64,000 bases of DNA from Cenarchaeum symbiont of Oopsacas minuta (GTDB taxonomy: Archaea; Thermoproteota; Nitrososphaeria; Nitrososphaerales; Nitrosopumilaceae), in NCBI GenBank assembly GCA_029948415.1, contig JAJIZT010000003.1, forward strand, positions 101,429-165,428. Reading direction: 5' to 3'. The notes under the pieces were generated by a model. That model did not search any database and had not been told where the DNA came from. It saw only the letters and a program-made list of their open reading frames with translations. Each line of letters starts with the position of its first letter. Within the stretch, counting starts at the first letter, position 1. Positions 50,582 to 64,000 of the stretch are shown piece by piece. The translations under genes and the position numbers were made by a program.

Positions 50582-51302
50582 TCAAGATATATAGTCATGA
50601 AAGTTTAGATTTCGTTGTCTACATGTCTCATTTACACTCATCAATATCTTGTGTGATGTAGCGCCATCATCTGTTCGATGACCGTTTGTAATCTTTCGTA
50701 TTACCACGTTTGGCTTCTCTGCAGTATTATTATGTGAATCAGTTCCAGTCTTCAAGAACGTGAAAAGCATGTCTTGTTCACGCTTTAGACGTTTGACAAA
50801 TCTGATACAATTCTTTTCTGTATATTCTTTGGATAAAAGATACGATAAACGACGCTCGAGTTTTTTTATGACATTTGATTTATCACGAATGTTTACAGCA
50901 TTATGTGAGTCATTTAGGATCTTTTTCAAACATTTTCCAAAAACAATAAACTCTTTTTTGGGATTTTTATACTGTAGAATATCTCTCATATAATGAACAT
51001 GGCATCTTTGATGACTGTTTCCAACGTAATTCCACGCAGACCATGAATCACTTGTCAGTGTATCCTTTTAACACTCTCATTGGAGCTATTCTACCACGTG
51101 ATTTGTCAATCTCATATATGGTCGTCCATTTTCCAACAAATGCCCACAACCAATGATTCTTCCCGTTGATGCGCCAGCTAGTCTCATCCCCATGTATATT
51201 CAACTCGGTTTTTAGATCTCTTATCATCTGTTCATATAATGGGCCAAATGCTGTAGCAGTTTTTTTTACTGCGTGATTTATGGTAGATTCATTCATGTGT
51301 AT
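50582..51302 (-). pseudogene. IS66 transposase, C-terminal part
   Basis: GIHMNESTINHAVKKTATAF, GDETSWRINGKNHWLWAFVG (IS66 DDE region) and KGYTDK lead to a 1-nt frameshift near 51045. SWSAWNYVGNSHQRCHVHYM and the C-terminal part (MRDILQYKNPKKEF...) continue in another frame to 50582. Joined to the N-terminal part at 52687 when the inserted IS is removed. Confidence 0.8.
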
Positions 51303-51358
51303 ACCAGACCGTATGCACATTACCAATAAAGTTAGATCAGTTCTTGACTGGATACTGC

Positions 51359-51447
51359 ATGATCAAAGCATGAGCAAACAAATCAAAATGTCACAAGTAT
51401 GATCAAAGCTTGAGAGAGTTCTACAAACAGATCAAAATGTCAGAAAT
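51359..51447. repeat. imperfect direct repeat inside the nested IS
   Basis: ATGATCAAAGCATGAG (51359) and ATGATCAAAGCTTGAG (51399) start two units that share AATCAAAATGTCA / GATCAAAATGTCAG. It lies in the non-coding end of the IS downstream of the transposase stop. Confidence 0.5.
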
Positions 51448-51616
51448 ATGACAAAAACGGTAACATCATGCGCAGGCATGTTGCACAGAGGTGTGCTACT
51501 TTATTTGAGAACAGACTCGTTCCATAGGTTTGACATACTTGCGGTCATTGAACAGGATGTGCAGATTTGTCAGCCCAGTGACAACTTGGATCTCTTTGTA
51601 AAACTCTTCCTTGCTA

Positions 51617-52606
51617 TCATACACTCATCCTGCGGAACCATTTTAGTCGGTTTATCGCATGCTCTACTCTAATACGTTTACGACTAATTCTTTTATTGTA
51701 TTTCTGATCTGTCTCTGTCATCTCGTAACCTTTGGGTTTTTTGTATGGTTGCTTTGAAATTATTCCAGGATAATCTTTCTCTACACCAAGATATCCTTTA
51801 TCTGTATACAGTATGATACGATGTTCTTGTTTTGTACTAGGATCTCTCATGTTCTTTGTCCATTTGCCAAAATTTGGTGGATTGCGTCGTAGTACTTCCA
51901 TGTCGTGTGCAGAACCTTCTTCAGGATGGCCTACATCAAGTACTAGTCCATCTTTGTTTGAGGTTATCTGGATATTGTACACATGTCGCTTGCGTTTTCC
52001 AGAGTATGCCTTTACTTGTGGTCTTTGAACCTGTACAAACGTGGCATCAAGATATAGCTCACCTGCACTCTTGCCTGGAACAAATTCTTTAAACGCTTGG
52101 ATGGTGCGTTCTTTCCGTATTGTAGCTGCAATGTTTTCGGCAGTTGGAAGGATCTTCATCAACAGCACATCTGCTAATGCTAGATATCTACTGACTGTAC
52201 TCTGATCAATGTGGGCATATGCTGCAAATATTTCTTGCTTTTTGTTGTTGCGTTTGCGAGACAATGCAATAAACAAGACTCGTCTTACAGAGAGAATGCA
52301 TGTGTTTCCTGACTCGTTGGCATATTCGGAGAAACGTGGTGCATTTGGTGAATTTTTAACAGCATTTTCAAATCGTACAAGGATCCATTCAAACTCGTTA
52401 CGTTCTAATCCCGTAGTGGCGTAAAGGTTTTGGTCATCATCAATTATCTGATCAAACACAGTGTCATTGGACAATCTGCCTTTCTTGTAATCATGCAATT
52501 CTGCTTTAGATTGCTCACTTTCTGCTTTAAATTTCTCAATTTCTGCTTTCAATTCGGTATTTTTCTTTTCTAGTTTGAGAATCATACGCTTGTCTGAATC
52601 ACACAT
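51617..52606 (-). CDS. IS5-superfamily transposase (DDE_Tnp_4-like)
   Basis: 329 residues, unbroken. An N-terminal coiled coil (MILKLEKKNTELKAEIEKFK and onward, to about 42) is followed by a helical domain with HIDQSTVSRYLALADVLL (HTH). The DDE core has ELYLDATFVQVQRP, a second Asp in ILYTDKGYLGVEKDYPG and Glu in RIRVEHAINRLKWFR. Similar to ISL2/IS1031-group transposases, whose elements duplicate 3 bp on insertion, as seen here. Possibly still active. Confidence 0.88.
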   Translation of the reverse strand: MCDSDKRMILKLEKKNTELKAEIEKFKAESEQSKAELHDYKKGRLSNDTVFDQIIDDDQNLYATTGLERNEFEWILVRFENAVKNSPNAPRFSEYANESGNTCILSVRRVLFIALSRKRNNKKQEIFAAYAHIDQSTVSRYLALADVLLMKILPTAENIAATIRKERTIQAFKEFVPGKSAGELYLDATFVQVQRPQVKAYSGKRKRHVYNIQITSNKDGLVLDVGHPEEGSAHDMEVLRRNPPNFGKWTKNMRDPSTKQEHRIILYTDKGYLGVEKDYPGIISKQPYKKPKGYEMTETDQKYNKRISRKRIRVEHAINRLKWFRRMSV

Positions 52607-52686
52607 GCCATGTGTGTATTACACTTGATCTTGGATCTTTCGTTTCATCATAATTGATTTTTTTGTCAATGTGCATAAGGTCTACC

Positions 52687-53280
52687 GTATATCATTTCTA
52701 ATAGTTGGGATATTTTTTGATATGATAATCCAAGTGTTTTGAGTACAATTAAAAATGCTGCTAGTCGGATTCCAAATCTTTCATTTGGTAATGCAGTATG
52801 GATTTTTGATGTGATTGTTTTTTTGCAACATTTACAATATCTTCTAGATATAGTATTGTATACCTGTGCTGGAATAATATCTTCTACTATACGTGTGTAT
52901 TTATGCACAATTTTGGATAGTTTGTTTCCGCAGACATGACATGATTTTTGATCCACCTCGGTTTTGTTATCAATGTGAACTGGTCGTTTTCTGCTGGTTC
53001 TTGCATGTTAAGTTTTATAACTGAATCTGGTTTGTTGGGTTTTGCACGAATATTCTTTGCTGTAAGAGCATTTATCGTGATTTTTAATTCTTCATTCTCA
53101 TTTTTTGTCTGTTGTGTAGTTTCTTGATATTCTTGTATCGCTTTTCCTTGTTGCTGTATCTTTTCTCCTTGTTGCTGTATTGTTTCTCCTTGTTGTTTGT
53201 TTTCCTTGCGTAATAATGCAAGTTTTTTTCTCTAGATTCTCAGACCTAGGACAAATGTGGTCTATTTTTTCATTATTCAT
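52687..53280 (-). pseudogene. IS66 transposase, N-terminal part
   Basis: CHVCGNKLSKIVHKYTRIVE, then DIIPAQ and RRYCKCCKKT form the zinc-binding region, and LPNERFGIRLAAFLIVLKTL leads to LLEMIYG at the insertion point. The upstream leader (to 53280) is shifted into other frames, with a polar repeat-rich segment (TTRRNNTATRRKDTATRK). Confidence 0.7.
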
Positions 53281-53375
53281 GAACGATTTTTTGTATTATA
53301 CACCTGATCCAAAAATGTAATGATGAAAAATATTGGATCAAATGGTCAGATTACTTCAAAACTCTAGATAGTTAC

Positions 53376-53631
53376 GTTTTTTCCAAGATTTGGATTTTTG
53401 AATGGTTAGATGCGTGCCCCATTTGACGTATTTACTATCAGCATGTATGCAGAACCTCCTGATTGCACACATGTCAGCTAAAATCCGTACAGTAAACAAT
53501 ACCATCGTATTCAACATGGATCATTCCTGATGTGGGGGTATTTTCATCAATAAACCACAATCATGGGGTGATCTATTTGTTTAGGTTTGAATTCTGTCTA
53601 TATGATATTTAGGCAGGTTATGCAACTAAGT
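53376..53631 (-). mobile_element. inverted left-end fragment of IS-A
   Basis: Read in inverse, 53631 downward begins ACTTAGTTGCATAACCTGCC and follows IS-A to about its base 250, where it meets the IS66-like end. The IS terminus is 15 bp upstream of the TATA box of the giant gene. Confidence 0.85.
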
Positions 53632-53645
53632 AAAGCCGATCGCGA

Positions 53646-53656: not shown

Positions 53657-53684
53657 CATTAATTATGGTCAATACATATTGTAT

Positions 53685-56600
53685 GTGATTACCATATTTG
53701 CATTGGTATTATTATCTCCATTACCATTCATCTCGCCGTTTGATTATCATGTACAAGACACTACCGTTCAATCTCTTTTTGGTCAATCATACCATGATAT
53801 CATCAAAACAAGAAATGCTTATGCACAAGATCTCCCACCGATTGCATTATCTGACATCCAGTACGGTGGATTTGGTGCATCTCCAGTATCTTTCATAACC
53901 AACGGCACAGAGTATCCAACACTAGACGCCACAGTCGACATTACCACCACCCAAATAGATGGCTCTACATATGCCCTAGTGACAGCATTTAATGATGATA
54001 GCCTCCAAATAATAGACATCACCAACCCTGCATCTCCATCTCCTGTAACAAGTATAACAGACAGCACAGAATATCCAGAACTAGATGCCGCATCCGGCAT
54101 TACCACCACCAAAATAGATGGCTCTACATACGCCCTAGTGACATCAGTAAATGATGACGGCGTCCAAATAATAAACATCACCAACCCTGCATCTCCATCC
54201 CCAATAGCTGATATAACCGACGGCGCAGACTATCCAGAACTAGACGGAGCAACCCGCATTACCACCACCCAAATAGATGGTTCCACATACGCCCTAGTGG
54301 CGGCAAATAGAGATAATGGCGTCCAAATAATAAACATCACCAACCCATCAGACCCATCTCCTACAGCTGACATAAACCAAGACGCAGAGTATCCATTACT
54401 AGACTTCCCAATATACCTCACCACCACCCAAATAGATGGCTCTACATACGCCCTAGTGACAGCATTTAGTGATGATAGCCTCCAAATAATAAACATCACC
54501 AACCCTGCATCTCCATCTCTAGTATCAAACATAACCGATGGCGCAGACTATCCAGAACTAGACGGCGCATCTGGCATCACCACCGTCCAAATAGACGGCA
54601 CCACATACGCCCTAGTGGCGGCAAATAGAGATAATGGCGTCCAAATAATAAACATCACCAACCCTGCATCCCCATCTCCAGTGGCAAACATAACCGACGG
54701 TAGAGAGTATGAAAAACTAGACCGCGCATCAGACATTACCACCACCCAAATAAACGGTATCACATACGCCCTAGTGACAGCATTTGATGATAATAGCGTC
54801 CAAATAATAGACATCACCACCCCCGCATCTCCATCTCCAGTAGCTGCCATAACCGACGGTATAGAGTATCCAGAACTAGAAGGCGCATCAGACATTACCA
54901 CCACCCAAATAAACGGTATCACATACGCCCTAGTAACAGCACGTTCTGATGATGGCGTCCAAATAATAAAACTTGGAGAGATCCAAATTGGAACAGTAAC
55001 ACCTCTATCAATCAATACTAGTACCAACAATGCATATGCAAATACAGGTGATACATTGACTATAGAATTAAACGTAAATAATACCATAGCCACACATACT
55101 GCAAACATTGTAAATCTATCAACTCCAACGATAACCACAAATGGTAGTAGTCTTGTCGCATCGATAACAATTCCATCTAGTCCAATAGAAGAGTATGCAA
55201 CATTTATCATTACAGTTGCAAACTCGTTAGGTGTCTCGTTGGATATAACACAAAATGATCTACCATCAGATCCAAACATCTTTGTAGACACAATACCTCC
55301 AAGAATATCTCTAATATCCTCTGCAAACTATACAGTACTGCAAAACACCACAAACCTAGTCATTCCAGGCGCAATCGTAATTGATGGTGATCCAAATTAC
55401 TCTGGCACTTTTACTGTTACCACAAATGACACACTTGACACAAGTACAATAGGCTCTACTGTTCTCTATACATACACTGCAGATACAGATGGGGCAGGTA
55501 ATCTAGGTCAGAGTACAACTAGAACCGTTACCGTCATAGACGCTGAACCAATTACAGTTACAGATCTAACTGTCTCAAGTAACAGCGGCAACGACAACAA
55601 TTACGCTAGAGCAGGTCAAACAATAACCATCACATTAACCACAGACGGCACAGACATTGGAAATGTCACAGGTACCATACTCGGCAGAGAATTTACATCT
55701 TTTAATTTTTCTGGTAGCGCAATATTTCGCAGCACTATACAAACAGGTGATGATGGAGACCTCGTATTTGATATTACCGTAACAAACTCTACTGGACACG
55801 CAATAAGAATTACACAAAATGACATTGCCAGTGACTCTATAATTTTAGACACTATCGCACCTACCATCACACTCAACGGTCTTTCCAATATAATATCTAG
55901 TTTGGGTGTACCATTTGCAGATCCAGGCGCTATTGCAACAGATACATCATATGGTACACAATTAGTCACCAGTACTGACCCAGTAAACACAAACGCACTA
56001 GGCACATATACTCTATCATACACGGCACCAAATGACCTAGCTGGCAATCCAGGTCCAACCATAACAAGAACTGTCAGCGTTCAAGATCTCCCACCGATTG
56101 CATTATTTGGAATGCCGTTAGGTAAACTTGGCGTCTCTCCAGTATCTTCCATAACCGACAGTGCAAACTATCCAGAACTAGCTGGCGCAACCAGCATCAC
56201 CACCACTCAAATAGATGGTTCCACATACGCCCTAGTGGCAGCACAAAATGATGATGGCGTCCAAATAATAAACATCAGCAATCCTGCATCCCCATCTCCA
56301 ATAGCTGATATAACAGACGGCACCGACTATCCCGAACTAAGCACCCCACTAGGCATTACCACCACCAAAATAGATGGTTCCACATACGCCCTAGTGGCAG
56401 CATTTACTGATGATGGCGTCCAAATAATAGACATCAGCAATCCTGCATCCCCATCTCCAATAGCTGATATAACAGACGGTACAGACTATCCAGAACTAAA
56501 TGGCGCATCCAGCATCACCACCACTCAAATAGATGGTTCCACATACGCCCTAGTGACATCAAATAATGATGATGGCGTCCAAATAATAAACATCAGCAAC

Positions 56601-59600
56601 CCAGCATCCCCATCTCCAATAGCTGATATAACAGACGGCACAGACTATCCCGAACTAAACAACCCACTAGGCATTACCACCACCAAAATAGATGGTTCCA
56701 CATACGCTCTAGTGGCAGCACAAATTGATGATGGCGTCCAAATAATAGACATTACCAACCCAGCATCCCCATCTCCAATAGCTGATATAACAGACGGCAC
56801 AGACTATCCAGAACTAAATGGCGCATACAGCATCACCACCACTCAAATAGATGGTTCCACATACGCCCTAGTGGCATCACAAATTGATAATGGCGTCCAA
56901 ATAATAGACATCAGCAATCCTGCATCCCCATCCCCAATAGCTAACATAACAGACGGCACAGACTATCCAGAACTAGATGGCGCAACCAGCATCACCACCA
57001 CCAAAATAGATGGTTCCACATACGCCCTAGTTGCAGCACAAGATGATAATGGCGTCCAAATAATAAACATCACCAACCCTGCATCACCATCCCCAATAGC
57101 TAACATAACAGACGGCACAGACTATCCAGAACTAAATGGCGCATCCGGCATTACCACCACCAAAATAGATGGTTCCACATACGCCCTAGTTGCAGCACGT
57201 TTTGATAATGGAGTCCAAATAATAAAACTTGGAAATCTACCACCAGTTATTCCTCTATCAATCTATACTAGTACAAACAATGCATATGCAAATACAGGCG
57301 ATACATTGACTATAGAATTAAACGTAAATGATACCATAGCCACGCATACTGCAAACATTGCAAATCTATCAACTCCAACGATAACCACAAATGATGGCAA
57401 TCTTGTCGCATCGATAACAATTCCATCTAGTCCAATAGAAGAATATGCAACATTTGCCATTACAGTTGCAAACTCGCTAGGTGTCTCGTTGGATATAACA
57501 CAAAATGATCTACCATCAGATTCAAACATCTTTATAGATACAATACCTCCAACAATATCTCTAATATCCTCTGCAAACTATACAGTATTGCAAAACACCA
57601 CAGACCCATTCATTCCAGGTGCAATCGTAACTGATGGTGATCCAAATTACTCTGGCACTTTTACTGTTACCACAAATGGCACACTTGATACAAGTACAAA
57701 AGGCTCTACTGTTCTCTATACATACACTGCTGATACAGATGGGGCAGGTAATCTAGGTCAGAGTACAACTCGAACCGTTACCGTCATAGACGCTGAACCA
57801 ATTACAGTTACAGATCTAACTGTCGCAAGTAACGGCATCAACAATTACGCTAGAGCAGGTCAAACAATAACCATCACATTAACCACAGATGGCACAGACA
57901 TTGAAACTGCAACTGGCACCATACTCGGCAGAGAATTTACATCTTTTAATTTTTCTGGTAACGCAATATTTCGCAGCACTGTACAGACAGGTGATGATGG
58001 AGACCTTGTATTTGATATCACTATAACAAACTCTACTAGACACGCAATCAGAATTACACAAAATGACATTGCCGGTGACTCTATAATTTTAGATACTATC
58101 GCACCTACCATCACACTCAACGGTCTTTCCAATATGCCATCTAGTTTGGGCGTTCCATTTGCAGATCCAGGCGCTATTGCAACAGATACATCATATGGTA
58201 CACAATTAGTCACCAGTACTGACCCAGTAAACACAAACACACTAGGCACATATACTCTATCATACACGGCACCAAATGACCTAGCTGGCAATCTAGGTCC
58301 AACCATAACAAGAACTGTCAGCGTTCAAGATATCCAGCCAATTGCATTATCTGATATCCAGTACGGACTTGTTGCATCTCCAGTATCCTCCATAACCAAA
58401 GACACAAACTATCCAATACTAGACGGTTCATATGGAATTGCCATTACCCAAATAAATGATTTCACATACGCCCTAGTGGCAGCATTTAATGATGACGGCG
58501 TCCAAATAATAAACATCACCACCCCCACATCCCCATCTAACGTAACCCACATAACTAGTTCAGGGTTTAGCGGTCTAATCGGCCCACTCGGTATTGCCAC
58601 CACCGAAATAAATGACTACACATACGCCATAGTGGCAGGACATCTTAGTGCCATTGAAGTAGTAAACATCACCACGCCAACAAAACCATCCTCAACATAT
58701 ACTATAAGAAATAGCAATGATGTCTTTGCAACACGTTCAGCAGAAATCACCACCACCCAAATAGATGGATCCACATACTCCCTACATACATCACCTCCTT
58801 TACATTACATCGAAATGATAAATATAACCGACCCAACAAGGATATCAGAACCAATATCATTAATAAACAGCTCAGATTATCCAGCATTCAACGGCCCATT
58901 CGGTATCACCACCACCCAAATAGATGGCTCTACATACGCCCTAGTTACAGCATACGATGATGATGCCGTCCAAATAATAAACATAACAAACCCCGCTTCC
59001 ATATACCCAGTATATGCCATAACCAACAGCACAGAGTATCCAGAACTAGATGGCGCACGCAGCATCACCACCACCCAAATAGATGGCTCCACATACGCCC
59101 TAGTGACAGCAGTTCTTGATGACGGCGTCCAAATAATAAACATCACCACCCCCACATCCCCAACTCCAGTAGCAAGTATAACCAACAGCTCAGATTATCC
59201 AGCACTCGGCGGCGCACGCAGCATCACCACCACCCAAATAGAAAACTCTACATACGCCCTAGTGACAGCATTTACTGATGATAGCGTCCAAATAATAGAC
59301 ATCACCAACCCTGCATCCCCATCTCCTGTAACAAGTATAACAGACAGCACAGAATATCCAGAACTAGATGGCGTATCCAGCATTACCACCACCAAAATAG
59401 ATGGTATCACATATGCCCTAGTGACAGCATATATTGATGATGGTGTCCAAATAATAAAACTTGTAAAGGCACCAACTGGAGAAACAACAACCCCTCTATC
59501 GATCAAAAGTAGCAGTGGTGCATATGCAAATTCAAGCGATACATTGACTATAGAATTAAACATAGACTCAATCATCTACTCGTATGTGGCAAACATAATA

Positions 59601-62600
59601 AATTCTGAATCTATCCCAACTGTAATAATAAATGGTCGCAGTCTTGTTGCATCTATAACAGTTCCATCTACTCCAATAGAAGAGTATGCAACATTTAGCA
59701 TTTTAGTTATAAATTCACTAGGCCTCTCACTAGAGATAACACAAGATGATCTACCATCAGACCCAAATATCTTTGTCGATACAATACCTCCAAGAATATC
59801 TCTAATATCCTCTGCAAACTATACAATACTGCAAAACACCGCAGACCCAGTCATTCCAGGTGCAATCGTAATTGATGGTGATCCAAATTACTCGGGTAGT
59901 TATACTGTTACCACAAATGACACACTTGATACAAGTATACTAGGATCTACTGTTCTCTATACATATACTGCAGATGCAGATGCAGCAGGTAATCCAGGTG
60001 AGAGTATAAACAGAACTGTCACTATTGTAAACGCAGGATCAATTACAGTTACAAGCCTGAATGCCACAAGTACTAGCGGCAACAATTACGCTAGAGCAGG
60101 TCAAATAGTATCCATCACATTGACCACAGATGGCACAGACCTTGGAAATGTAACTGGCCACATACTCGGCAGAACTTTTACATCTAGTACATTCAGTGGT
60201 TCTAGTGCAGAATTTAACAGCACTATACAAACAGGTGATGATGGAAACCTCGTATTTGATATCACTGTAACAAACTCTAGTGGATACGCAATCAGAATTA
60301 CACAAAATGACATTGCCGGTGACTCTATAATTTTAGACACTATAGCACCCACTATAACACTCAATGGAGAAGATGACATCATTGTAATACAAAATACCAC
60401 ATATACTGACCTTGGAGCAACAGCAACAGATGCATCATACGGCACACAAACAATTACAGGTACTGGAACAGTAAACACAAACACACTAGGCACATATACT
60501 CTATCATACACGGCACCAGATGACCTAGCTGGCAATCTAGGTCCAACCATAACAAGAACTGTCAGCGTCAAAGATCTCCCACCGATTGCATTATCTACAA
60601 TACAGTTAGCTAAACTTGGTGTCTCTCCAGTATCCTCCATAACCGATGGCACAGACTATCCAGAACTAGACGGCGCATCCAGCATCACCACCACTCAAAT
60701 AGACGGCTCTACATACGCCCTAGTGGCAGCAAATGGAGATGATGGCGTCCAAATAATAAACATTAGCAACCCAGCATCCCCATCCCCAATAGCTGCCTTA
60801 ACAGACGGCACAGGTGGATATCGAGTACTAGACGGCGCATCCAGCATTACCACCACTCAAATAGACGGCTCTACATACGCCCTAGTGGCAGCATTTACTG
60901 ATGATGGCGTCCAAATAATAAACATTAGCAACCCAGCATCCCCATCTCCAATAGCTGCCATAACCGATGGCATAAACTATCCAGAACTAGGTGGCGCATC
61001 CAGCATCACCACCACTCAAATAGACGGCTCTACATACGCCCTAGTGGCAGCATTTAATGATGACGGCGTCCAAATAATAAACATCACCAACCCAGCATCC
61101 CCATCCCCAATAGCTGATATAACCGACGGTACAGACTATACAGAACTAGATGGCGCATCTAGCATCACCACCACCAAAATAGATGGTTCCACATACGCCC
61201 TAGTGGCAGCACAAACTGATTTTGGCGTCCAAATAATAAACATCACCAACCCAGCATCCCCATCCCCAATAGCTGATATAACAGACGGTGCAGACTATCC
61301 AGAACTATTCGGCGCATCCGGCATCACCACCACCCAAATAGATGGCTCCACATACGCCCTAGTGACAGCATTATTTGATGCTGGTGTCCAAATAATAGAC
61401 ATCACCAACCCAGCATCCCCATCTCCAATAGCTGATATAACAGACGGTACAGACTATCCAGAACTAGCTGGTGCATACAGCATCACCACCACCAAAATAG
61501 ATGGTTCCATATACGCCCTAGTGACAGCACAAAGTGATAATGGCGTCCAAATAATAGACATCACCAACCCAGCATCCCCATCTCCAATAGCTGATATAAC
61601 AGACGGCGCAGACTATCCAGAACTAAATGGTGCAACTAGCATCACCACCACCAAAATAGATGGTACCACATACGCCCTAGTGACAGCACAAAGTGATGAT
61701 GGCGTCCAAATAATAAAACTTGGAAATCTACCACCAGTTCTTCCTCTATCAATCTATACTAGTACAAACAATGCATATGCAAATACAGGCGATACATTGA
61801 CTATAGAATTATACGTAAATGATACAATAGCCACGCATACTGCAAACATTGCAAATCTATCAACTCCAACGATAAATACAAATGATGGCAATCTTGTAGC
61901 ATCGATAACAATTCCATCTAGTCCAATAGAAGAATATGCAACATTTGCCATTACAGTTGCAAACTCGCTAGGTGTCTCGTTGGATATAACACAAAATGAT
62001 CTACCATCAGATTCAAACATCTTTGTCGATACAATACCTCCAAGAATATCTCTAATATCCTCTGCAAACTATACAGTATTGCAAAACACCACAGACCCAT
62101 TCATTCCAGGTGCAACTGTAAACGACGGTGATCCAAACTATTCTGGCAACTATAATGTTACCACAAATGGCACACTTGACACAAGTACAAAAGGCTCTAC
62201 TGTTCTCTATACATACACTGCTGATACAGATGGGGCAGGTAATCCAGGTCAGAGTACAACTAGAACAGTTACTGTCATAGACGCTGAACCAATTACAGTT
62301 ACAGATCTAACTGTCTCAAGTAACAGCGGCAACGACAACAATTACGCTAGAGCAGGTCAAACAATAACCATCACATTGATCACAGATGGCACAGACCTTG
62401 GAAATGTCACAGGTACCATACTCGGCAGAGAATTTACATCTTTTAATTTTTCTGGTAGCGCAATATTTCGCAGCACTGTACAAACAGGTGATGATGGAGA
62501 CCTCGTATTTGATATTACCGTAACAAACTCTACTGGACACGCAATCAGAATTACACAAAATGACATTGTTCGTGACTCTATAATTTTAGACACTATCGCA

Positions 62601-64000
62601 CCTACCATCACACTCAACGGTTCTTATAATACCATATCTAGACTTGGAACTCTATTTACAGACAAGGGCGCTATTGCAACAGATGCATCATATGATATAC
62701 AGACAGTTACAGGTACTGGCACAGTAAACACAAACGCACTAGGCACTTATACTCTATCATACACGGCACCAGATGATCCAGCTGGTAATGTAGGTTCTAC
62801 CATAACAAGACTCGTCCACGTACAAGATCTCCCACCTATTGCATTATCTGACAAGAGATACAACCTTGACGTATCTCCAATAATAGCCATAACCGACGGC
62901 ACAGATGGCTATGAAGAGCTAAATGGTTCACGCCTCATCACAACCACCAAAATAGATGGCTCCACATACGCCCTAGTGGCAGCACATAGTGATCATGGCA
63001 TCCAAATAATAAATATCAGCAACCCTGAAACCCCATCTGCAGTATCTGCCATAAACAGCTCAGACTATCCAGATCTAATCCGTCCAACTGATATTGTGAC
63101 CACTCAAATAGACGGTTCCACATACGCCCTAGCTATATCAACAGGCAGTTCCAGCGTCATTATAATAGACATCAGCAACCCTGCAAACCCATCTTTGGCA
63201 TCAATCTATTCAGAATTACACATCCCAACCTACATCACCACCACTCAAATAGACGGTTCCACATACGCACTAGTGTCATCATACGGCGGGGATCACATCC
63301 ATATAATAGACATCAGCAACCCTGCAAACCCATCTCTAGCATCAAATATAATCAACAGTACAGAGTATCCAAATCTAGATGGCCCACGCAACATCGCAAT
63401 ACCCCAGATAGATGGTTCAACATACGCCCTAGTGACATCATTTCTTACTGATACCATCCAAATAATAGAGATCAACACTCATGCATTTCCATCCCCAGTA
63501 TCCTCCATAACCGACGGTGTCATCTATCCAAATCTAGATGGCCCATTTGACATTACAACTCTACAAATAGACAACTCTACATACGCCCTAGTGACAGCAC
63601 TAGTTGATAATAGCATCCAAATAATAGACATAACAAACCCCACAAACCCATCCCCAGTAACAAACATCACCAACAGCACAGAGTATCCAATACTAGAAAG
63701 CCCACGTAGCATCGCAATTACCCATATAGATGACTCTATCTATGCCCTAACGACATCCGATGCTAATGGCGTACAGATAATAGATATTACAAACCCCGTA
63801 TCTCCATCTCCTGTAACAAGTATAACTGATGGTGAAGAGTATCCAGCACTAGAGGGCTCGAAAAGTATCACAACTGCCCATATAGATGACTCTACATACG
63901 CCCTAGTTGCATCAGATATTGATCATGGCATCCAGATAATAAAACTCGAGCATATTGTAGAGACAGTACCACCTCTGTCTATTACAGGTGATACAAACGG
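53685..64000 (+). CDS. giant secreted beta-propeller/Ig-repeat surface protein (3' end outside window)
   Basis: One frame is open from 53655 to the right edge: at least 3,438 codons from GTG 53685 (TTG 53679 is the alternative; no in-frame ATG lies near). The N-terminus MITIFALVLLSPLPF is a signal peptide. Then come five super-repeats of about 750 residues, each opening with DLPPIAL-like sequence. In each, seven 53-residue blades (consensus: TDG..YPEL..A..ITTT.IDG / STYALVAA...DGVQIINITN / PASPSP) match LVIVD-type repeats and predict a seven-bladed propeller. Four Ig-like domains follow, alternating an A-type (ending ITQNDI...DTIAP) with a DUF5011-like type (GTYTLSYTAPNDLAGN). Most blades carry an Asn-Ile-Thr N-glycosylation sequon. 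I noticed no Cys in the parts I translated. Likely an extracellular adhesin or fibre; ligand unknown. The C-terminal anchor is beyond the window. Confidence 0.9.
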   Translation, partial: MITIFALVLLSPLPFISPFDYHVQDTTVQSLFGQSYHDIIKTRNAYAQDLPPIALSDIQYGGFGASPVSFITNGTEYPTLDATVDITTTQIDGSTYALVTAFNDDSLQIIDITNPASPSPVTSITDSTEYPELDAASGITTTKIDGSTYALVTSVNDDGVQIINITNPASPSPIADITDGADYPELDGATRITTTQIDGSTYALVAANRDNGVQIINITNPSDPSPTADINQDAEYPLLDFPIYLTTTQIDGSTYALVTAFSDDSLQIINITNPASPSLVSNITDGADYPELDGASGITTVQIDGTTYALVAANRDNGVQIINITNPASPSPVANITDGREYEKLDRASDITTTQINGITYALVTAFDDNSVQIIDITTPASPSPVAAITDGIEYPELEGASDITTTQINGITYALVTARSDDGVQIIKLGEIQIGTVTPLSINTSTNNAYANTGDTLTIELNVNNTIATHTANIVNLSTPTITTNGSSLVASITIPSSPIEEYATFIITVANSLGVSLDITQNDLPSDPNIFVDTIPPRISLISSANYTVLQNTTNLVIPGAIVIDGDPNYSGTFTVTTNDTLDTSTIGSTVLYTYTADTDGAGNLGQSTTRTVTVIDAEPITVTDLTVSSNSGNDNNYARAGQTITITLTTDGTDIGNVTGTILGREFTSFNFSGSAIFRSTIQTGDDGDLVFDITVTNSTGHAIRITQNDIASDSIILDTIAPTITLNGLSNIISSLGVPFADPGAIATDTSYGTQLVTSTDPVNTNALGTYTLSYTAPNDLAGNPGPTITRTVSVQDLPPIALFGMPLGKLGVSPVSSITDSANYPELAGATSITTTQIDGSTYALVAAQNDDGVQIINISNPASPSPIADITDGTDYPELSTPLGITTTKIDGSTYALVAAFTDDGVQIIDISNPASPSPIADITDGTDYPELNGASSITTTQIDGSTYALVTSNNDDGVQIINISNPASPSPIADITDGTDYPELNNPLGITTTKIDGSTYALVAAQIDDGVQIIDITNPASPSPIADITDGTDYPELNGAYSITTTQIDGSTYALVASQIDNGVQIIDISNPASPSPIANITDGTDYPELDGATSITTTKIDGSTYALVAAQDDNGVQIINITNPASPSPIANITDGTDYPELNGASGITTTKIDGSTYALVAARFDNGVQIIKLGNLPPVIPLSIYTSTNNAYANTGDTLTIELNVNDTIATHTANIANLSTPTITTNDGNLVASITIPSSPIEEYATFAITVANSLGVSLDITQNDLPSDSNIFIDTIPPTISLISSANYTVLQNTTDPFIPGAIVTDGDPNYSGTFTVTTNGTLDTSTKGSTVLYTYTADTDGAGNLGQSTTRTVTVIDAEPITVTDLTVASNGINNYARAGQTITITLTTDGTDIETATGTILGREFTSFNFSGNAIFRSTVQTGDDGDLVFDITITNSTRHAIRITQNDIAGDSIILDTIAPTITLNGLSNMPSSLGVPFADPGAIATDTSYGTQLVTSTDPVNTNTLGTYTLSYTAPNDLAGNLGPTITRTVSVQDIQPIALSDIQYGLVASPVSSITKDTNYPILDGSYGIAITQINDFTYALVAAFNDDGVQIINITTPTSPSNVTHITSSGFSGLIGPLGIATTEINDYTYAIVAGHLSAIEVVNITTPTKPSSTYTIRNSNDVFATRSAEITTTQIDGSTYSLHTSPPLHYIEMINITDPTRISEPISLINSSDYPAFNGPFGITTTQIDGSTYALVTAYDDDAVQIINITNPASIYPVYAITNSTEYPELDGARSITTTQIDGSTYALVTAVLDDGVQIINITTPTSPTPVASITNSSDYPALGGARSITTTQIENSTYALVTAFTDDSVQIIDITNPASPSPVTSITDSTEYPELDGVSSITTTKIDGITYALVTAYIDDGVQIIKLVKAPTGETTTPLSIKSSSGAYANSSDTLTIELNIDSIIYSYVANIINSESIPTVIINGRSLVASITVPSTPIEEYATFSILVINSLGLSLEITQDDLPSDPNIFVDTIPPRISLISSANYTILQNTADPVIPGAIVIDGDPNYSGSYTVTTNDTLDTSILGSTVLYTYTADADAAGNPGESINRTVTIVNAGSITVTSLNATSTSGNNYARAGQIVSITLTTDGTDLGNVTGHILGRTFTSSTFSGSSAEFNSTIQTGDDGNLVFDITVTNSSGYAIRITQNDIAGDSIILDTIAPTITLNGEDDIIVIQNTTYTDLGATATDASYGTQTITGTGTVNTNTLGTYTLSYTAPDDLAGNLGPTITRTVSVKDLPPIALSTIQLAKLGVSPVSSITDGTDYPELDGASSITTTQIDGSTYALVAANGDDGVQIINISNPASPSPIAALTDGTGGYRVLDGASSITTTQIDGSTYALVAAFTDDGVQIINISNPASPSPIAAITDGINYPELGGASSITTTQIDGSTYALVAAFNDDGVQIINITNPASPSPIADITDGTDYTELDGASSITTTKIDGSTYALVAAQTDFGVQIINITNPASPSPIADITDGADYPELFGASGITTTQIDGSTYALVTALFDAGVQIIDITNPASPSPIADITDGTDYPELAGAYSITTTKIDGSIYALVTAQSDNGVQIIDITNPASPSPIADITDGADYPELNGATSITTTKIDGTTYALVTAQSDDGVQIIKLGNLPPVLPLSIYTSTNNAYANTGDTLTIELYVNDTIATHTANIANLSTPTINTNDGNLVASITIPSSPIEEYATFAITVANSLGVSLDITQNDLPSDSNIFVDTIPPRISLISSANYTVLQNTTDPFIPGATVNDGDPNYSGNYNVTTNGTLDTSTKGSTVLYTYTADTDGAGNPGQSTTRTVTVIDAEPITVTDLTVSSNSGNDNNYARAGQTITITLITDGTDLGNVTGTILGREFTSFNFSGSAIFRSTVQTGDDGDLVFDITVTNSTGHAIRITQNDIVRDSIILDTIAPTITLNGSYNTISRLGTLFTDKGAIATDASYDIQTVTGTGTVNTNALGTYTLSYTAPDDPAGNVGSTITRLVHVQDLPPIALSDKRYNLDVSPIIAITDGTDGYEELNGSRLITTTKIDGSTYALVAAHSDHGIQIINISNPETPSAVSAINSSDYPDLIRPTDIVTTQIDGSTYALAISTGSSSVIIIDISNPANPSLASIYSELHIPTYITTTQIDGSTYALVSSYGGDHIHIIDISNPANPSLASNIINSTEYPNLDGPRNIAIPQIDGSTYALVTSFLTDTIQIIEINTHAFPSPVSSITDGVIYPNLDGPFDITTLQIDNSTYALVTALVDNSIQIIDITNPTNPSPVTNITNSTEYPILESPRSIAITHIDDSIYALTTSDANGVQIIDITNPVSPSPVTSITDGEEYPALEGSKSITTAHIDDSTYALVASDIDHGIQIIKLEHIVETVPPLSITGDTN
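53826..56081 (+). repeat. super-repeat 1 (752 residues)
   Basis: Seven propeller blades to about 54970 (TYALV cores near 53960, 54120, 54290, 54450, 54610, 54770 and 54930). Four Ig-like domains follow: A-type, DUF5011-like, A-type, DUF5011-like. Confidence 0.85.
56082..58325 (+). repeat. super-repeat 2 (748 residues)
   Basis: Seven blades (cores near 56220, 56380, 56540, 56700, 56860, 57020 and 57180; successive blades measured 159 nt apart), then the same four Ig-like domains. The Ig part is nearly identical in DNA to that of super-repeats 1 and 4. Confidence 0.85.
58326..60569 (+). repeat. super-repeat 3 (748 residues), more divergent
   Basis: Seven blades (cores near 58460, 58620, 58780, 58930, 59090, 59250 and 59410). 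Blades 2 and 3 are the most altered (YTYAIVAG, STYSLHTS). The Ig-like part (59470-60569) is also less like the others. Confidence 0.8.
60570..62822 (+). repeat. super-repeat 4 (751 residues)
   Basis: Seven blades (cores near 60710, 60880, 61030, 61190, 61350, 61510 and 61670) and four Ig-like domains. Long stretches repeat super-repeat 2 almost base for base, for example 61745-62010 against 57250-57520. Confidence 0.85.
62823..64000 (+). repeat. super-repeat 5, cut by the window edge
   Basis: Seven blades (cores near 62960, 63120, 63255, 63420, 63580, 63730 and 63900), all more diverged from the consensus than blocks 1, 2 and 4. The first Ig-like domain begins at about 63960 (PPLSITGDTN). 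Confidence 0.75.

Follow-up and report, generated by a model that had tools for sequence, protein, structure and literature searches.

The window analysed here, 64,000 nucleotides from the Cenarchaeum symbiont of Oopsacas minuta (GenBank assembly GCA_029948415.1, contig JAJIZT010000003.1, positions 101,429 to 165,428 of the forward strand), ends within a giant gene, here called W, which has three paralogues (A, B and C) in the same genome and encodes a putative surface protein of beta-propellers and immunoglobulin (Ig)-like stalks. A preliminary description of this DNA had noted a stop-free frame of more than 10 kb running to the window edge, which we confirm with a shifted start: 53685 is a GTG two codons 3′ of a TTG at 53679, where paralogue B has an ATG. 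From this TTG to position 63998 (+ strand) the frame encodes 3440 amino acids without a stop codon and is open at its 3′ end. The window end is also the end of the contig (C3, 165,428 bases; the genome comprises 11 contigs and 1.63 Mb), so that the 3′ part of W falls beyond it and the available sequence covers the first 3440 residues. GC skew reaches -0.28 and -0.25 across the repeat gene (window positions 56001-64000) as against -0.06 to +0.10 in the first 52 kb, a strong strand asymmetry that agrees with Thr/Ile/Pro-rich coding. The N-terminus, assigned by eye from the translation, resembles a signal peptide and has a counterpart in paralogue B. Judged from the sequence, the product is probably exported and exposed on the cell surface, in line with the giant surface protein first proposed. 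A TATA-like stretch precedes the start codon and was seen by eye at a comparable distance in A, B and C.

Behind the signal-like start, W has four complete super-repeats of propeller and stalk, and then a fifth propeller with only the beginning of its stalk (Table 1). Of the five or more super-repeats initially predicted, five propellers are present and four units are complete, the fifth stalk being ended by the contig end. The expected unit size and composition were borne out. Super-repeats measure 748, 748 and 751 residues between stalk ends, and 751 for the first one. With a blade hidden Markov model (HMM), 35 blades were found in five groups of seven, spaced mostly by 53 residues and in a few cases by 51-54. 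The stalk likewise has the four domains foreseen, arranged as two copies of a unit of one unassigned beta-sandwich and one PF16403 Ig domain. On the whole frame, PF08309 (LVIVD) scored 97.9 bits over a gathering cut-off of 20.2 (E 1.9e-28, 8 stretches) and TIGR04312 (choice-of-anchor B) 219.1 over a cut-off of 100 (E 1.1e-64); a single super-repeat reached 63.0 with TIGR04312, below that cut-off. PF16403 matched in 6 stretches (E 2.9e-50), giving the long stalk of repeated beta-sandwich domains typical of fibrillar adhesins, with a stalk model of low confidence. Side matches on the propeller to DUF1292, RexA, GvpD_P-loop, TnpW and SPP1_Dit, some of them above their cut-offs, were set aside, the repeat being biased and the profiles matched only in part.

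Table 1. Features of gene W and its upstream region, in window coordinates
Feature	Position	Strand	Evidence and remarks
TATA-box-like ATATATAAA	53647..53655	+	about 28 nt 5′ of the start codon; by reading; putative function
Signal-peptide-like N-terminus	53679..53828	+	hydrophobic core LYVITIFALVLLSPLPFI; segment stops right before DLPPIAL
Propeller 1, seven LVIVD-type blades	53877..54980	+	blade HMM cluster, Pfam
Ig stalk 1, two (beta-sandwich + PF16403) units	55002..56081	+	Pfam
Propeller 2, seven blades (modelled)	56133..57236	+	blade HMM, AlphaFold2, Foldseek, VIA-align
Ig stalk 2	57252..58325	+	first unit modelled and compared
Propeller 3, seven more diverged blades	58374..59462	+	mean within-propeller blade identity 0.51
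Ig stalk 3	59493..60569	+	
Propeller 4, seven blades	60621..61727	+	blade HMM; 0.96 same-position identity to propeller 1 of paralogue B
Ig stalk 4	61743..62822	+	
Propeller 5, seven diverged blades	62871..63953	+	mean blade identity 0.53
Fifth stalk, beginning only, ended by contig end	63954..64000	+	

Structure prediction, proposed earlier as a check on one super-repeat, returned a seven-bladed propeller. In the AlphaFold2 model of propeller 2, predicted local distance difference test (pLDDT) values were about 95-98 in the propeller and 37-78 in the stalk, and the model strands form seven four-stranded blades. Comparison with the PDB by Foldseek and VIA-align aligned residues ~12-388 of the model to known propellers. 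A search of the PDB with an LVIVD profile (of A2) found no chain at E 0.01. The low-confidence model of the first unit of stalk 2 lends weak structural support to an Ig-like fold. Strand order and standard propeller topology suggest that the N-terminal strand closes the ring at blade 7. Comparison and prediction together give good support to the count of seven blades and to the propeller fold.

To locate variable positions, blades from the genome of the symbiont and from a gammaproteobacterial metagenome-assembled genome (MAG) with related propellers, CATOTD01, were put into a 53-column register. Among interior blades of 11 symbiont propellers, variability was highest at column 39 (0.85 of pairs differ), followed by 40 (0.84), 21 (0.81), 18 (0.75) and 42 (0.71); in 35 CATOTD01 propellers it peaked at columns 21, 18, 40, 29, 13 and 39. 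Early per-column tables were incomplete, covering 6/7 blades of B2 and of C1 and 5/7 of A1, which stayed at 5/7 in the second table. The strand boundaries in the model place columns 39-42 in the B-C loop and columns 10-19 in the D-A loop, and column 21 lies where strand A starts. Standard propeller topology puts the B-C and D-A loops together on one face, opposite the AB turn. Strand order and this topology thus suggest a common face for columns 18, 21, 39 and 40.

The ratio of nonsynonymous to synonymous differences (pN/pS) was computed from blade pairs within propellers, with a bootstrap over propellers and uncorrected distances that are near saturation. The sets used for it and for blade identities hold only clusters of exactly seven blades, which drops single blades of B and C, and for CATOTD01 only frames of >3000 aa, which leaves out the two-blade cluster of a 722-aa frame. 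In the symbiont, pN/pS was 1.72 (bootstrap 1.33-2.37) at columns 39+40, 0.75 (0.65-0.87) at 18+21, 0.19 (0.08-0.37) in the AB turn and 0.62 (0.53-0.70) at columns other than 18, 21, 39 and 40. The CATOTD01 values were 0.95 (0.90-1.04) at 39+40, 1.10 (1.01-1.20) at 18+21, 0.75 (0.68-0.82) in the AB turn and 0.48 (0.45-0.51) for the rest. These values make a moderate case for diversifying selection at two columns in the symbiont and a marginal one at the other two in the bacterium. The possible binding face on each propeller, suggested before this variability pattern was seen, gains support from it as a candidate.

Loops may also vary simply because they are free to do so. The propellers would then be inert beads in a coat, a fibre resembling a surface layer (S-layer) or capsule, with a role in spacing, charge or protection from grazers or phage; we consider this a possible but rather unlikely reading. 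It would suit the W translation, which is very acidic, free of cysteine and rich in sequons. Ig-rich proteins also appear to be usual in the family: a profile of ten super-repeats matched 33 of 250 genomes, many of them in the Ig stalk part only. Moreover, PMC6790972, on sponge symbionts, treats S-layer proteins with a low isoelectric point, which might contribute to adhesion, along with DUF5011 domains of the Ig-like kind. Two observations, however, go beyond what free drift would give, although neither is decisive: the pN/pS above 1 at columns 39-40 in the symbiont, and the bacterial set, in which most variable columns lie in the same place.

The four paralogous frames W, A, B and C carry LVIVD propellers behind a similar N-terminus. 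The blade HMM, which was built from such blades, found seven in 11/11 complete propellers, the only other clusters being single blades in B and C that adjoin an N. Propeller 4 of W and propeller 1 of B share 0.96 same-position identity, and the second propellers of the two genes 0.95; whole propellers are thus common to different genes. Mean blade identity within symbiont propellers ranges from 0.49 to 0.79, indicating that some were recently homogenised and others have diverged. Ns, which may be assembly gaps, occur in or near the paralogous genes: a single one each in B, C and a fifth frame (L045), a run of 315 at A and one run of 1880. As they interrupt the genes, the ends and total propeller numbers of the paralogues are uncertain. 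A C-terminal anchor was sought and not recovered from W, which stops at the contig end, or from A, B and C, which run into Ns.

Such gaps raise the question whether the repeat number in W is an assembly artefact, the super-repeats being real and their number or order in the contig wrong or chimeric. The end of the contig inside W, the Ns in B, C and L045, the 315 Ns met by A and exact repeats (up to 126 nt inside W, and up to 167 nt shared by W with B) would all be compatible with this. So would a further case at L046:5071-11577, where a frame resembling a DEAD-box helicase with RGG repeats (by eye) is followed, after a single N, by an Ig-domain surface protein, probably through a scaffolding join. 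W itself, on the other hand, contains no N across 10.3 kb, its five propellers differ from each other (0.54-0.83 same-position blade identity), common reads are longer than 126 nt, and B and C independently show chains of several propellers. We therefore regard a wrong repeat number as improbable.

Mobile DNA adjoins these genes. Window positions 51048-53633, immediately 5′ of W, contain transposase genes or their remnants, of the IS66 and DDE_Tnp_4 types. DDE_Tnp_1 transposase genes or remnants lie upstream of A and B, and an IS66-like transposase, recognised by translation and DNA match, upstream of C. The DNA upstream of W is 94.8% identical over 695 nt and 99.6% over 247 nt to that upstream of C, and 96.1% over 259 nt to that upstream of A, the shared DNA stopping ~45 nt before the start codon; no upstream match to B was among the matches listed. 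One further row of this upstream comparison (D), which begins at an incorrect ATG inside a frame, was disregarded.

Relatives of W are scattered. A search with super-repeat 2 matched 4 of 41 genomes (the symbiont and its relatives), the symbiont included. Among the 33 genomes found with the ten-super-repeat profile, for which about four best candidates per genome were scored, at least 13 (own included) match in the propeller part by our reading, and only the symbiont matches across the whole super-repeat among the matches listed. PF08309 matched 11 of 398 genomes of the phylum, with a longest frame of 1602 aa outside the symbiont; this model is short and misses divergent members, as in a genome (G015) that matches the ten-super-repeat profile and not PF08309. 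A contig-library scan yielded 22 loci, from Nitrosarchaeum, Nitrosopelagicus, Cenarchaeum, marine group I, Flavobacteriaceae, the gammaproteobacterial MAG, Synechococcus, a Spirochaetales MAG and a Gracilibacteria MAG. In viral contigs, the single relative among 75 pattern matches (L093) has eight LVIVD-like blades and is 27% identical to the window super-repeat, and a viral origin of W was dropped.

Bacteria offer a parallel. LVIVD propellers occur in CATOTD01 in frames of 16,183, 14,744, 11,748, 10,590 and 3522 aa, whose fetched parts (to 15,908 aa of the first and 8814 of the fourth) hold 10, 8, 13, 2 and 2 clusters; 35/35 are seven-bladed, or 35/36 with the two-blade cluster of the 722-aa frame. 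Most matched segments are ~45-60% identical to the window propeller. Unlike W, these chains reach 13 propellers, and in place of PF16403 Ig stalks the single linker examined (L072, residues ~398-1265) shows abundant repeats-in-toxin (RTX) motifs (PF00353, E 8.4e-67); an RTX match was also present in a C-terminal piece of 600 aa. The string-of-propellers principle is thus common to both, with different spacers. RTX adhesins carry nonapeptide repeats and a C-terminal type I secretion signal; no PF00353 repeat was found in the available 3440 aa of W, whose C-terminus lies beyond the contig end, and for the part covered an RTX identity was dropped. The CATOTD01 strings, being larger, rule out that propeller strings are unique to archaea, and the notion of an archaeal peculiarity does not stand. 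Their giant frames lie on contigs C14, C3 and C9 of that genome (L099-L106, L109-L110) and exceed the W protein in size.

Other relatives share parts of the design. A large Nitrosopelagicus protein (AH-558-D16, L088; frame of 6484 aa at L107-L108) has two seven-bladed LVIVD propellers next to each other and a C-terminus of lysine-rich repeats, and no repeated propeller-stalk unit was seen in it. A Flavobacteriaceae protein (L071) combines one N-terminal seven-bladed propeller with a long stalk of PF16403 and other Ig domains, again without a repeated unit. Proteins with LVIVD or choice-of-anchor B profiles contain the same repeat as W, whose whole frame passes both cut-offs, but W has blades of ~53 residues against a 42-residue model and several propellers per chain. 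Choice-of-anchor B proteins carry a C-terminal surface anchor or sorting signal. Jing et al. (2002) reportedly described archaeal surface-layer proteins that join YVTN-type beta-propellers and PKD domains, which have an Ig fold, whereas the W propellers are of the LVIVD type. BapP of Pseudoalteromonas tunicata, according to PMC12153261, also has a stalk, made up of Ig-like and cadherin-like domains and topped by a predicted propeller, and is needed for proper biofilm formation; unlike W it is bacterial, with one five-bladed propeller and 12 beta-sandwich repeats. Extracts of other papers describe the LVIVD repeat (PMC2447325) and report it from three sponge thaumarchaea, notably Thaumarchaeon TS (PMC7848895). 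A chain of several LVIVD propellers was not found described in the accessible parts of the open-access literature, including PMC7848895, PMC7522525, PMC8078820, PMC11532034, PMC2447325, PMC12153261, PMC6790972 and PMC9218822, and some open-access full texts on fibrillar adhesins mention neither LVIVD nor propellers. W combines parts that are each known (LVIVD, PF16403, choice-of-anchor B), but we found no description of their arrangement.

On balance we lean towards W being a multivalent surface adhesin or recognition fibre with fast-changing heads, exported through the Sec pathway of an archaeon that a family label, common to this genome and those of the Nitrosopelagicus and Nitrosarchaeum loci, would place in the Nitrosopumilus group. 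The stalks of Ig-like domains would serve as spacers keeping at least five seven-bladed propellers off the cell, and each propeller would be a binding head on which the B-C loop (39-40) and the loop into strand A (18, 21) form a ring of ~28 variable residues, with the framework strands kept conserved. New heads might arise when blades or whole propellers are copied, presumably by recombination, within and between paralogous genes flanked by insertion sequences. Selection would keep the blade count constant, as it takes seven to close the ring, and single-residue diversification would then alter what ligand each head grips. That the propellers are instead enzymes or cofactor binders shown in many copies, for example of a virginiamycin-B-lyase-like kind, seems very improbable to us.

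Blade counts elsewhere weigh against a strict rule of seven. Of 52 clusters listed for the scanned loci, 35 are seven-bladed and 17 are not; these clusters are not independent, several loci lying on the same CATOTD01 contigs and some overlapping, and frames with <3 blades are unlisted. Five of the 17 (L072, L073, L079, L082, L089) are located at, or close to, the end of a locus or contig. Clusters from Cenarchaeum MAGs (L084, L085, L087) comprise 3, 5, 15, 3, 3 and 4 blades, where the HMM may have missed divergent ones.

The proposed adhesin would tie the little-studied LVIVD repeat to a design of seven-bladed heads on stalks with variation at named positions, and would suggest a means of attachment to hosts or particles for some ammonia-oxidising archaea; any connection with a host or a sponge is no more than a lead. 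It would also be a natural case of amplified blades (mean identity within one propeller reaching 0.79) whose count stays at seven in this genome, in contrast to the 2 to 47 blades of highly repetitive propellers given in the accessible part of PMC9218822. More tentatively, W and its paralogues might form a modular recognition repertoire of cassettes, each a seven-bladed propeller with a hypervariable face. Copying, homogenisation and renewed diversification within transposase-flanked families would then yield chains with many differently tuned heads. If so, this archaeon, and with RTX linkers the bacterium, would have a prokaryotic analogue of repeated-domain recognition molecules.

The fifth frame, L045:3209-13324, unites FG-GAP repeats of the integrin propeller type (PF01839, E 4e-26), Ig domains and two LVIVD blades before its single N. 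Its C-terminal region of ~440 aa (L045:3212-4537) is 98% identical to the matching frame end at L046, so that two Ig proteins share it. The L045 copy matched no Pfam family. This region is not assignable to W as its C-terminus, though a plausible tail for one paralogue. Weak relatives occur in 5 other genomes of 41, with ten matches in one of them (G017), and the region may be an archaeal surface tail domain.
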